This document shows, in pieces, positions 8,003 to 45,845 of a stretch of DNA of 64,000 nt. Numbering within the stretch: the first letter of the stretch is position 1; each line of letters begins with the position of its first letter. The notes beneath the pieces were generated by a model. The model had not been told where the DNA came from. It did no database searches and worked only from the letters and a program-made list of their open reading frames with translations. This DNA is from Isoetes taiwanensis (lineage: Eukaryota; Streptophyta; Lycopodiopsida; Isoetales; Isoetaceae): the NCBI GenBank assembly GCA_021234155.1, contig JAJEKV010000030.1, positions 5,128,050 through 5,192,049 of the forward strand, read 5' to 3'. The position numbers and the translations under genes are program-made.

Positions 8003-9534
8003 TATTGTCTTGGGAGGCCTAAAAGGCCTAAAAGACAATCAATATGCATAATCATAAAAGAGCAAATGAGTCTCAAGATCCCTCATCTTGCTCGTCGCCT
8101 AATAATATCATCTTCCTCAATAAGATTATTCAACCTTTTCAAGCAATTCTCTCTATACTGCAGAAGATCTAGTAAATAGCCCCCGATTTTCTCCCCCTTC
8201 ATGGTAAAGAAAGTCCGAAGATCATCTACTTCAATGCCATGTTGGGCACGCAGCAAAAAGTATGCCCCACATCTAAGTAATGTATGTTCTTCGTCTTCCA
8301 CTTGTTCTTCACCACAAACTTTGCAGTGTCTTTCAGATCTCGGTACAATTTGTCCCCATCTCCCCGTTTCCACTCCTAGATGATGTGAACTAAGACGGAT
8401 TCTGCCAATCGCATGTCTTTTCTTGATGGAGATATTATCATCCAAATATTGGGCCACCTTTAAATCAGGATTCATATTTTGCCTATATAAGATCATTTTT
8501 GTCTTCGGTTGTAGCCACATCTTCCTCTGGACCTTATCATATACCCATTGTCTCAAGTTTGTCTCCAACAAAGCCTCTTCCCATTGGATATCCCATCTCC
8601 CAAGCCAATTAATGACATCATGAAACCATCCCTTATCTCTGCTGGCTAACAAAGCCTTGTAAGGGAGCCGAGTATTATCCATGTGAAACAGCTTTTTCAA
8701 GAAACGGATACATCTTACCATAGCCTCTCCTTCTAGGGGTAATGTAACCGCATTCGGTTAGCATCATCGGATAAGGGGTTTGAGCTTTGATCCCTAGCTC
8801 AAGCCTTATAAATTTCTTTAGAACCTGTTCAAGATCCGCCCACAATCCATGTGAGATAGTAGGTCCCCAAATCTCACTGCCATATAATGCTACACTTTGT
8901 ACTAGCGATTCAAACAGTCTTTTTTTAAGTGTCCAAAACCATAAGTGTGCCTCTCTACAAAGACTCTGCATGGCATAAAGAGCCTTGTGGCTTCCATCTA
9001 TCCTCTGAGCAATGCAAGTATTCCATCTATGGTTCCTATGGAAAATCAGCCCTAAATATTTATAAGAATCACAAGGACTCACCAACTTATCTTTGTATTT
9101 GAATGAACATTCCTGTTTGAGCGCTCCTACTGTCATAATATTCGTTTTCCCCAGATTTACCTCCATCCCAAGAGACCGCAAAAATTGAGCTAGCCCATCC
9201 AAATGTCTCTCGCATGGATTCCGTGGAGCTGGCAAAGATAACCACATCATCTCAGATACATCAACAACCCGCACTAATCAATTATGTAACACCGCACCGC
9301 CTCGACAATTTTCATGTAGCCATGATTCAAGGCCATCAATAAATAATCCAACAAAGTGGGAGACAATGGGCAGCCTTGTTTAACTCCAATGTTGCTGTCA
9401 ATGTATTCTGGGTTCTCTCGATGATAATGGGAAGGACAACCGCATCAACACTTTTTCGATAATATCCGCATCGCTTCTTGTAATGATTTCGTATATCTAG
9501 CTTATCCATTCTATCCCATAGTCCGGTGTGTGTG
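8003..9534 (-). mobile_element. Family A LINE copy A1, 5'-truncated
   Basis: Minus-strand element. The open frame at 9336-9535 reads LWDRMDKLDIRN, equivalent to LWQRMVDLNIPV just after motif A in copy A2, so truncation falls inside the reverse transcriptase. The frame at 8675-9274 holds the end of the reverse transcriptase (EVNLGKTNIMTVG, YKYLGLIFH, ALYGSEIWGP). The frame at 8083-8721 holds the C-terminal domain with RHAIGRIRLSSHHLGVETGR and a C-x2-C...H-x4-C zinc motif (CKVCGEEQVEDEEHTLLRC). The 3' end has an eight-pair outer stem hairpin at 8004-8040. The element lies between two GA-type arrays. Stops and frameshifts make it non-functional. Confidence 0.85.
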
Positions 9535-9535
9535 T

Positions 9536-9652
9536 GTGTGTGTGTGTGTGTGAGAGAGAGAGAGAGAGAGAGAGAGAGAGAGAGAGAGAGAGAGAGAGAG
9601 AGAGAGAGAGAGAGAGAGAGAGAGAGAGAGAGAGAGAGAGAGAGAGAGAGAG
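9536..9652. repeat. (GT)n(AG)n compound microsatellite
   Basis: A run of GT units (about 9536-9552) passes directly into about 50 AG units (9553-9652). It abuts the 5' truncation point of LINE A1 on the left and GCC-TTGGCCACATGC on the right. Confidence 0.97.
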
Positions 9653-10093
9653 ATGCCTTGGCCACATGCTAACTTAAGGAAGGTGAGAGAGAATACCTAG
9701 AGGTGAGAGATAATGAGAGATGGGTGAGAGTGGAAAACCCAACTCTCACCTTTGAGATGATTCGCCCCAACAAACGCTAGGAGCGCTTCCATTAACCACT
9801 AACTTAACAACCCCCAAAATTTTGTTGCCCTCGAAAATCATGACCTAAAAACTTTCCCTTTATCGAAATTCGGGCACCATTTTCCCATGTTTCTTGGTCT
9901 TCAATGCCACAAGCAAATCCTTTGAATTCCCCTAATTCTTCTATATCTCAGACATCGATTTCCTGGTCTAGAGGTATTTCTCCGCGTAATCCTTATTAAT
10001 TCATTTCAAATCAATCTTACATTGTTCTGATATCAAATTCTATTAGAACAGATATTGTTTCTTGGTTGATTAACTTGAATTCTATAGAGTCCA

Positions 10094-11097
10094 ATGTCTA
10101 AGGCAACTAGATCTGCCATGCGAGCAAGCAGCAAACCCTTTGTGCCTCCTCGCATCGAGAAAATGGCTCCAAGGAGGACACGAAAGATGACAGGGCAGAT
10201 TTCCATGAACGTGGACTTGGAGACAAATTCTGAGCCAATTGTAACAGCAAAAGAGCCAAAGGAAAGGAGATGTAAGCGAAGTTCTCGTGGAAATTCAAGC
10301 ACCCCGCCAAGATTGTGAGTGAATCTTCTCAGCCCGATAATTCAATGGCTCTTGTTGTTCAAGAAAAGGAAAATCCCAAGCAAATTGACACAAAGAATAG
10401 GAAGGCTCCAGTCCAATGGACAGATCAGGGTGTTCCCACCTTCCTGAATCTTCTGAATGAGATGAAATTGGTTACTAATGGTAGTCTGAATCTTTCTAAT
10501 GCATAGTGGAGACAAATTCTAGTGAAATTACAGCCAATTGTTGATGGATTAGTGGAAGTCAGGGAACTGAAGAACAAATGGGATAAACTACAGGCAAAAT
10601 TCAAGGATGAGAAAGAGGCTTCTAGTCATACGGGTTCAGAACCTTCAAGTTGGCAGTGGTATGAAAGAATGGAAGAAGTCAAGTATGGAGTGACATCTGA
10701 TAACCCCATTCCAGGGGCTGGGGATGATGGGGAGTTCGAAAATGAAGCTTTTGAGGCAGCAGATTTGCACACTAACTTTTCTGACAGTTTCTATGAGACA
10801 GTTGGATCTGATGCTGCTTTCGATGATCCTTTTGAGAGTATTGAAGACATTCCCAATGTCAATGTGAACATAGACAATTCAGGAAGCCCAAGAATGCATG
10901 AAATGCCAAACAATCGAACTCCAACAGGTAACAACACAGATTCCTCCAACCCCAGATCTATAGCATGCAATCAACCTGGAGTATGTGGAAAGCCTACTGG
11001 AAGAAAGAAGTCCAGGTTGCAGATTGATGAAGACATTGCCTTTTTAGATGATTTTAGTGATGAGCTTTTTAGAGATGGGAATAATTGTGGAAGCTGA
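10094..11097 (+). pseudogene. Harbinger-associated Myb/SANT-like DNA-binding protein, interrupted
   Basis: Open frames at 10094-10318, 10315-10506 and 10522-11097 together read like one protein. It has a basic N-terminus, then a Myb/SANT-like region with VQWTDQGVPTFLNLLNEM and VRELKNKWDKLQAKFKD (the W...F-L-x-L-x-x-E ... L-K-N-K-W-D-x-L pattern). An acidic linker follows, and then a C-terminus ending near LDDFSDEL. In Harbinger elements this protein carries the transposase into the nucleus and binds the element ends. A frameshift near 10316 and a stop (TAG) at about 10504 in the middle of the Myb domain break it. It could be a spliced gene, but no clean introns are evident. Confidence 0.65.
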
Positions 11098-44040: not shown

Positions 44041-44537
44041 TCTTGAGCATTGTCTCTTTGATTGTCCCGAGGTTCAACCAGCGGGGTCCCGGCTACAAGG
44101 TTTGTTTAACAAGACATTGACCGGCCGATGCATCCTTTTGGCGCCCTATCCCAATGCATGGCCTCCAAATAAACAAAGGGCATTTCACCTTGGTTCCGTT
44201 GGCTCTTGTATGGTCGATATGGGGCGTCGTAGACACCACATCTTTCGGGCATTTATTCATCCGCATAGTGTTATTACAAAGGCCCGTAAAAGATATTGGC
44301 GACCCTACGAAAGTGTTCTTCCCTTGACTTCGAACCGGTGGAACGATCCGATTCAAGATCTTCGAATTGATTCTTATCATAAGTCTCCTATTCGAGTAAG
44401 TACATTGTGCTCGTGCTCGTGGTTCTGTGGCATCTCTCGTGGTGCTTACACGTTAGATGAGACATGTAAATTTTGTACTTTTTCTCTGATTAATAAACTT
44501 TTTGACTTTCGTCCTTCAAAAAAAAAAAAAAAAAAAA
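41676..44537 (+). mobile_element. 5'-truncated L1-like LINE with poly(A) and 10-bp duplication
   Basis: Plus-strand insertion. CAAGTATAGA occurs at 41666-41675 and again at 44538-44547, directly after a 20-base poly(A) tail (44518-44537). The truncation lies upstream of the reverse transcriptase, so the endonuclease is missing. Clean duplications and a pure poly(A) make this one of the younger insertions in the window, although ORF2 is already broken. Confidence 0.93.
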
Positions 44538-44547
44538 CAAGTATAGA

Positions 44548-45740
44548 GGCCTTTATCTATATTAAATGAGCTCTTCTCCATCTCAAACAAGAGTACAACT
44601 TCCTTTGTTGCAGATAGACTAAGCTAATTAAAGATTTGTTTTATCCCTTCACTACAATAGAGTAGTGTGACTCTGTAATCTTGCTTTGAATCTTTCTTAT
44701 GCAGCTTATAATTTTTTAATATGGGCAGACATCCCAGGAAGGGAAGCGCTGTATCTTTTCAGTGGAAAGCCATTGCTTTGGGGAGCAGACTATATTTGTA
44801 GCCTAACAGGGCCGTAGGATGGCCCAATTGCGCCTTCTCACTCAAATCCTAACCTACTGCCTATGCAAAGGAAGGATCTTCCGGCTCTATGCGCAATCTA
44901 GCGGCCAAAGGTTATCGTCTGCAGATCAAATTTTTAAATATTTAACAATTCAGATGGCTTCATGCTTGTTAAAGACACAAAGCAAAGTTTGGGTCGTCGG
45001 AATGAGCATCACAGAATTAACCTGATGTCGGGCCTTATTATATAGCAAAATAACAGGTGTTCTAGGGGTTCCAGGGGGATTTGATATGGATGTAAAAATA
45101 ACAATTCCTGAAACCTTAGATCATATATCCCTAAAACAATTGAATGGGTTGTTATAAAAAAAATATAGATTCAAGGTAAAAAATAATCACATTAGCTCAC
45201 TGGGTACATTGGTTAAAGTAGTCCTATTAAGACATTGAATTATTTTGGTAGTCGAGCCTCCGTATTTCATATTCTAAAATCTTAGGCAAAGTGGTATAGA
45301 GGTTCGATATTCCCTCAAAACCTTATGCGAAATCGTATTTCATATTTCAAAATCATAGGTGCCTCCAATCATAAATGAATATAAGCGAAATGAAAGGTGC
45401 CCAGAGGCCCCGCCCCAACATATGATCTGGGTCGTAGAATCGACGAATCTGACGACTGTGGTAGTCCAGGGTGCACCTCGTTTAGAATATGTAGCAAAAT
45501 AACCGCCAACTGTTTCTTCAGCATTATAATCACCAACCGTTTCTTCTAGGCTCACAAAACAAGACAATATTAAGATCTCTATTTCAATTGAAGATATTAT
45601 TTGAATTCAAGGTGTTTGGATTCTAATTCATCTATATTCTTAATGTTCATTTGATGTTGTTGGAACTAGGAATTAGCATCCCATATTCATAAATATTTTG
45701 GTCATTCTGTGTTGTATTTGGATCATCTGTATTGTTCATG
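44548..45740. other. Intergenic stretch, one tRNA-like pair of boxes
   Basis: No gene is seen. Near 45191-45310, TTAGCTCACTGGG and GGTTCGATATTCCC resemble polymerase III A and B boxes. CGTATTTCATATT with AAAATC repeats at about 45260 and 45333. A tRNA-derived SINE relic is possible but weak. Confidence 0.3.
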
Positions 45741-45744
45741 AAAT

Positions 45745-45845
45745 ATACACAAAGTGCGCTCCTTCTGGGTCTCATAGGCTGATTGGTCTCGGTGGACGAT
45801 AAAAATCGTTCATTCATTCATTCTTTCTTTCTTTCTTTTTCATTA
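45745..45845 (+). mobile_element. Family B LINE, bare 3' end
   Basis: GGGTCTCATAGGCTGATTGG then TCTCGGTGGACGAT is the family B 3' hairpin (45767-45800; inner AGGCT/GGTCT, outer GTCT/GGAC). It is followed by (TTCA)n(TTCT)n at 45808-45840. No coding part is present, so this is an extreme 5' truncation. Confidence 0.7.

Follow-up and report, generated by a model that had tools for sequence, protein, structure and literature searches.

Do the 3' ends of long interspersed nuclear elements (LINEs) in the quillwort Isoetes taiwanensis carry an RNA structure that is kept as a structure, or are they related sequences in which pairing is a by-product? The question is raised by a window of 64,000 nucleotides (contig JAJEKV010000030.1, positions 5,128,050 to 5,192,049 of the forward strand), which is part of a 1,658,258,908-base assembly of 1110 contigs (GCA_021234155.1). 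Ten LINE 3' ends in this window, A1-A6 and four B ends that are named here by their position in kilobases, share a plan: an outer stem, an internal loop, and an inner stem with a short loop, just before a repeat tail. An earlier account (the sequence-only reading) had taken this double-stem hairpin for a selected RNA structure shared by two LINE families. The analysis presented here suggests that the two-storey hairpin is probably the 3' recognition element of a single LINE clade of the apurinic/apyrimidinic endonuclease (APE) type, and that it would be bound by the element's own reverse transcriptase (RT).

The hairpin at ten LINE ends

Every stem that had been named was located in the sequence, and all ten hairpins can be drawn. 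Their positions in the window are as follows.

8004-8039, minus strand: A1 3' hairpin; outer stem of 8 bp, ATTGTCTT/AAGACAAT; inner stem AGGCC(T)/(A)GGCCT
13628-13657, minus strand: A2 3' hairpin; outer CGTCT/AGACG, inner AGACC/GGTCT
15811-15843, minus strand: A3 3' hairpin; outer ACGTCT/AGGCGT, inner AGACC/GGTCT
16897-16927, minus strand: A4 3' hairpin; outer CGTCT/AGGCG, inner AGAC/GTCT with inner closing pair A.G
17729-17759, minus strand: A5 3' hairpin; outer ATGTCT/AGACG, inner stem with one mismatch
17665-17695, minus strand: distal twin of the A5 hairpin, in a 64-bp tandem duplication, 64 bases from the A5 hairpin
37459-37487, minus strand: A6 3' hairpin; outer AATGCC/GGCATT, inner TTTTG/CAAAA, loop GGCC
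2863-2893, minus strand: B2.86 3' hairpin; outer GTCC/GGGC, inner AGGCC/GGTCT
24751-24779, minus strand: B24.75 3' hairpin; outer GTCC/GGAC, inner AGGCC/GGTCT
30123-30151, plus strand: B30.12 3' hairpin; outer stem short of one pair, tail (CCTT)n
45769-45797, plus strand: B45.77 3' hairpin; outer GTCT/GGAC, inner AGGCT/GGTCT

The internal loops, previously put at 2-5 bases, measure 1-4 bases in the ten ends (1 and 2 in A6), and the apical loops are variable (TGAT, TGGC, GATT, GGCC, TTT). The A6 end reads AATGCC C TTTTG GGCC CAAAA TA GGCATT, followed by GATAA and (TTTA)n. The weakness of the outer stem of B30.12 was borne out and is specific to this copy among those seen: at the same site 25 of 28 sister copies have GGACG, two GGATG, one AGACG and none the GAACG of B30.12. 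(This comparison used 30 loci from 40 scored places among 1241 candidates; locus L085 was missed by the pattern.) A search of the window hairpins against 4227 Rfam models gave no match at E<=1.

For each end, the 48 bases that precede the tail were compared with 1000 dinucleotide shuffles (p<0.05, uncorrected) by two measures, folding energy and a two-stem descriptor defined for this analysis. The descriptor separates six of the ten ends from their shuffles (A1, A2, A3, A4, A6 and B2.86), and folding energy separates A1, A2, A3, A5 and B24.75. Eight ends pass on at least one of the measures; B30.12 and B45.77 pass on neither. In the case of A1 (-15.9 kcal/mol) one of the 1000 shuffles is equally good; the descriptor gives p=0.001 for A1 and A3, and A6 has p=0.011 by descriptor and p=0.159 by energy. 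Combination of the ten ends yields a Stouffer Z of -5.99 and a Fisher value of 2.6e-8, significance that is overstated because the ends are related. For most of the ten, the hairpin can be taken as genuine.

Families A and B as one clade

Coding remains lie beside most of the hairpins.

8116-9489, minus strand: A1, RT/C-terminal coding remains, 5'-truncated
13651-15786, minus strand: A2, RT (RVT_1, E=1.1e-30) and C-terminal region
15890-16610, minus strand: A3, C-terminal coding remains (translated search)
17103-17349, minus strand: A4, C-terminal coding remains (translated search)
17843-18813, minus strand: A5, RT/C-terminal coding remains (translated search)
37594-38548, minus strand: A6, RT/C-terminal coding remains (translated search)
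4253-6102, minus strand: RT and APE remains of the same clade, in pieces; they lie upstream of B2.86 and presumably belong to it (APE remains at 5818-6102)
28158-29420, plus strand: B30.12, RT remains, 31-48% to the A2 RT

Translated searches find remains of one APE-type LINE clade near eight of the ten ends (A1-A6, B2.86 and B30.12); no RT remains were seen in these searches near B24.75 and B45.77. The A1 and A2 proteins are 45% identical over 204 residues, and in protein-related elements the hairpin is located between the coding remains and the repeat tail. Among longer relatives, L095 has an Exo_endo_phos (APE) domain at 2514-3380 (E=3.4e-11) and L061 an RVT_1 domain (E=8.5e-22), both above the Pfam cut-off. 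A longer copy, read piecewise, has a weak ORF1, the APE domain and the RT; the L1-type domain of ORF1 (Transposase_22, E=0.023) falls below cut-off. In a phmmer comparison of scores with PDB proteins the RT of the hairpin LINEs scores 77 bits with R2 and 57 bits with human L1.

Because RT remains of this clade adjoin eight of the ten ends, A and B are classed by RT homology as branches of one APE-type LINE clade, not as the two unrelated families of the sequence-only reading. Much of the shared hairpin shape is therefore inherited sequence, and what has to be asked is whether pairing is kept beyond what descent alone would leave.

Pairing against controls

From 23 ends a sequence-only model was made and then scanned over 348,609 bases from 100 sources, mostly fetched for such ends. 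It gave 87 matches at E<=1, the weakest in L011 (E=0.058), and recovered eight of the ten window ends together with the A5 twin; A1 and A6 were missed. The alignment that the model produced has 39 distinct rows; pairing is present in 89.6% of its cells, as compared with at most 53.4% when the partner is slid by 1-3 columns, and the covariation score is 0.232 as compared with at most 0.107 in these slid controls. Neither value is attained in any of 500 letter shuffles. Double changes, seen in three pairs, do not favour the structure, because slid controls reach four (slide -2) and three (slide +1); 69 of the 500 letter shuffles also reach three, and 373 reach the observed number of pair types.

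In an arm-swap test, whole 3' arms were exchanged among 17 hand-picked representatives, so that linkage within arms was kept. With their own arms 171 of 187 pairs form, against 148.6 with swapped arms (p about 1e-4); the signal persists when A1 and A6 are left out (p=0.010) and within A only (p=0.0024). When three C-type ends are added (repeat C is described below), 203 of 220 pairs form with own arms and 154.9 with swapped arms (p about 5e-5).

These results bear on the proposal that the hairpins are chance pairing in short ends. B30.12 and B45.77, which singly are no better than shuffles, speak for it; the descriptor values of A1 and A3, the slid controls and the arm-swap speak against it. 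Slid controls, shuffles and arm-swap make chance unlikely, to the point that we give it hardly any weight. By the same three tests the 3' stem-loop before the tail is conserved; the covariation test alone is not significant.

A1 and A6: the same plan in other letters

Relative to A2, the stems of A1 have two double changes, both still paired. In A6 all 11 pairs form, although in nine of them both letters are other than in A2 (in a register set by hand), and this is the strongest single evidence for a kept shape. That stem sequences differ is well supported only for these two ends; A2-A5 and B share TAGRCC..GGYCT by descent. The statement that pairing is kept although stems have changed stands for double changes between protein-homologous elements, chiefly A1 and A6. 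The case for compensatory change is one of a few striking lineages, not of a formal test.

Several results weigh against selection on the pairing. Just five of the ten window ends beat shuffles on folding energy at p<0.05. The minimum-energy fold of A6 differs from the proposed structure, as do those of B2.86, B30.12 and B45.77. Significant covariation of paired columns had been named as the support to look for; an R-scape-like test with its own tree-based null (37 of the 39 rows, mean identity 0.73) found none of the 11 pairs significant, so that this support is lacking. The best structure pair has p=0.017, and pairs outside the structure score higher. (With so few independent lineages this null says little either way, yet it lends no support.) The arm-swap gives no pairing signal for B only (p=0.83), and its registers for A1, A6 and L039 were hand-set on the structure. 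A6 has four other genomic matches. In L128 the outer stem is intact, but TTTA/TAAA is the only inner stem that can be drawn, and TTA/TAA is favoured in the minimum-energy fold. In L129 the outer stem is damaged, though the inner letters are as in A6. A clean compensatory re-pairing in L128 was considered and dropped, the fold not showing such pairing. In the two short matches inspection by eye showed no hairpin of the A6 kind; L130 has a B-type end instead.

Much of this would be expected if the 3' end were recognised as sequence (TAGRCC..GGYCT, GACGWWAAAA) and the hairpin were a by-product kept by descent: the inner-stem letters are almost constant across A2-A5 and B, no pair is significant under the phylogenetic null, and B alone gives p=0.83. 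A1 and A6, however, retain the shape with other letters, and recognition of sequence is in our estimate a minority prospect, though one to be taken seriously.

Short copies and repeat C

B24.75 is a copy of about 50 bases, with little beyond hairpin and tail, inside another repeat (24740-24790; by eye), and is flanked on both sides by the 8-base repeat CTTTTGGG (by eye). The 64-bp tandem unit at A5 (window 17633-17761) consists of hairpin and tail and starts at the hairpin base; the duplication could be a product of template jumping at the 3' end. B24.75 and the A5 twin look cut down to little beyond hairpin and tail (boundaries by eye), and they suggest that the 3' end suffices as a template start.

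Such copies are also relevant to the possibility that the hairpin serves some other RNA step, such as 3' end formation, stability or transport, instead of RT binding. Its situation at what would be the RNA 3' end suits that role. A template start, as suggested by the short copies (by eye), does not, and in fish elements such as ZfL2-1 and ZfL2-2 the stem-loop is a binding site of the ORF2 protein (PMC4176376). Another RNA step accordingly seems improbable.

A numerous repeat of about 235 bp, repeat C (40 scored of 1968 candidates), first came to notice in copies beside A copies. It is found at these places.

L044, 55-300, minus strand: repeat C copy
L116-L127: repeat C copies
L062, about 3290, minus strand: repeat C copy
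L040, about 2723, minus strand: repeat C copy
Window, about 16813, minus strand: repeat C copy

Its 3' end has GACGTTAAAA and a (CTAT)n tail, and GACGTTAAAA is also present in the B variants L032 and L067. Repeat C can form a hairpin of a plan similar to that of the LINE ends; among 13 copies folded for minimum energy, 11 show the inner stem GTCC/GGAT and only two the outer and inner stems together. The head of the repeat is tRNA-like, with A- and B-box-like stretches (by eye only); no tRNA was found by ARAGORN in 11 loci or by Rfam in four. Repeat C is a possible partner of the B-type LINEs, resembling a short interspersed nuclear element (SINE). That it might be a (TC)n-specific element was rejected, (TC)4 or longer being present in the 5' flank of two of 13 copies and in the 3' flank of three of 13.

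Microsatellites beside family A

Where an A-type copy has an (ATTTC)n tail, (TC)5 or longer mostly follows within the next 110 bases (32 of 36 such copies), versus none of 33 B-type copies. This count covers only loci collected in this analysis (eight repeat loci having been removed beforehand), and most of its A copies belong to two subfamilies, most of its B copies to one. An overlapping earlier count gave 23 of 27; in background stretches the figures were 33 of 4000 and one of 1554. The family A loci with this observation are L002-L008, L039-L058 and L104-L115. The tails of A1, A4 and A5 do not show the (ATTTC)n pattern, so these three ends do not enter the count; (TC)n follows A1 and A5 but not A4. 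In the window the arrays are placed as follows.

7913-8002, minus strand: (TC)45, directly 3' of A1
13505-13602, minus strand: (TC)49, 3' of the (ATTTC)n tail of A2
17439-17641: (TC)n near family A copies
9526-9653: (TC)n(AC)n preceding the A1 coding remains

A3 is a counter-example to this placement: it is an insertion within the A2 coding sequence and is without (TC)n. It was also considered that (TC)n is a transcribed tail of A instead of its target; this is not favoured, because in L095 and the truncated A1 the 5' side is also flanked by (TC)n. Family A is possibly a microsatellite-targeting plant LINE that builds nested clusters.

Between (GA)n arrays, at about 9658-13500, the window also contains a DNA transposon of PIF/Harbinger type, with DDE_Tnp_4 in two pieces, a MADF/Myb-SANT-like open reading frame and ends GGCCACATGC (by eye). 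In L004, L008 and L062 the same Harbinger end recurs close to (TC)n, next to copies of LINE A. A stretch at 9650, tried as the A6 hairpin, was rejected: it is the end of this transposon beside (GA)n, and it folds worse than shuffles.

Proposed mechanism

The preferred reading, recognition of the hairpin by the element's own protein, can be put as a series of steps. Close to the 3' end of its own RNA, the ORF2 protein would bind the hairpin by its shape; target-primed reverse transcription would start in the repeat tail just past it, and the hairpin, by analogy with fish L2 elements, would present the tail to the RT. Pairing would then be under selection in the RNA. In family A the tail may pair with a (GA)n strand that has been nicked at a (TC)n microsatellite, and new copies would then be directed to such sites.

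A broader picture, in which a lycophyte LINE clade reads shape and not letters, one branch homes to (TC)n with nested clusters, and a SINE-like mimic is carried along, is offered tentatively and is on the whole doubtful; the weak folds of repeat C lower its probability. If shape is indeed what is read, whole stems would have been replaced between lineages.

Other features of the window

A tRNA match above the Rfam gathering score lies at 20682-20765 (minus strand). Beside it, at 20408-20519, is a repeat that matches microRNA models only below their gathering scores. A fragment of a pentatricopeptide repeat protein is located at 46338-46931.

Comparison with known systems

Microsatellite-targeting LINEs, such as Dong and the Tx1-group elements of fish, insert in simple repeats. 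Family A would resemble them in this respect, the likeness being one of insertion habit; its host is a plant. If one branch does prefer (TC)n, plants would gain an example of a LINE that inserts in microsatellites.

The hairpin itself has its closest counterparts in the zebrafish elements ZfL2-1 and ZfL2-2. There experiments showed that a 3' stem-loop, bound by the ORF2 protein, is needed for mobility; it sits just before the repeat tail and has an upper and a lower stem, as in the quillwort (PMC4176376). The fish stems are exchangeable, secondary structure being what is required, whereas the choice of binding protein depends on the sequence of the loop (PMC4176376); quillwort loops vary.

Among plants, Ohshima described a monocot L1 lineage, ME1, with a 3' hairpin and compensatory changes, whose 3' end is shared by maize and sorghum SINEs (PMC3747384). 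Plant LINE 3' hairpins are thus already known as a kind, and the suggestion that the quillwort hairpin is undescribed has to be narrowed: literature searches on plant LINE 3' hairpins and on lycophyte or Isoetes LINEs and SINEs, at the level of listings and the opening lines of abstracts, gave nothing on this particular hairpin, which is no proof of absence. ME1 belongs to the L1 clade of flowering plants and has a conserved UCU loop and CGAG flank (PMC3747384); the quillwort LINEs differ in their lycophyte host and in an RT that scores nearer to R2 than to L1 among PDB proteins.

By analogy with the fish L2 elements and the monocot L1 lineage, the hairpin is most likely a 3' recognition element of the stringent type, and stringent-type LINE 3' hairpins would thereby be extended to a deep plant lineage. 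At 41675-44537 the window also holds an L1-like element that contains RVT_1 and carries a run of poly(A), and whose RT scores 87 bits with L1 and 33 bits with R2; it is a possible relaxed-type neighbour of the hairpin LINEs. Ohshima asked whether plant LINEs began as strict readers of a hairpin and later relaxed to poly(A) (PMC3747384). A strict-type hairpin in a clade that seems unlike the usual plant L1s, side by side with a poly(A) L1-like element, would make that question testable.

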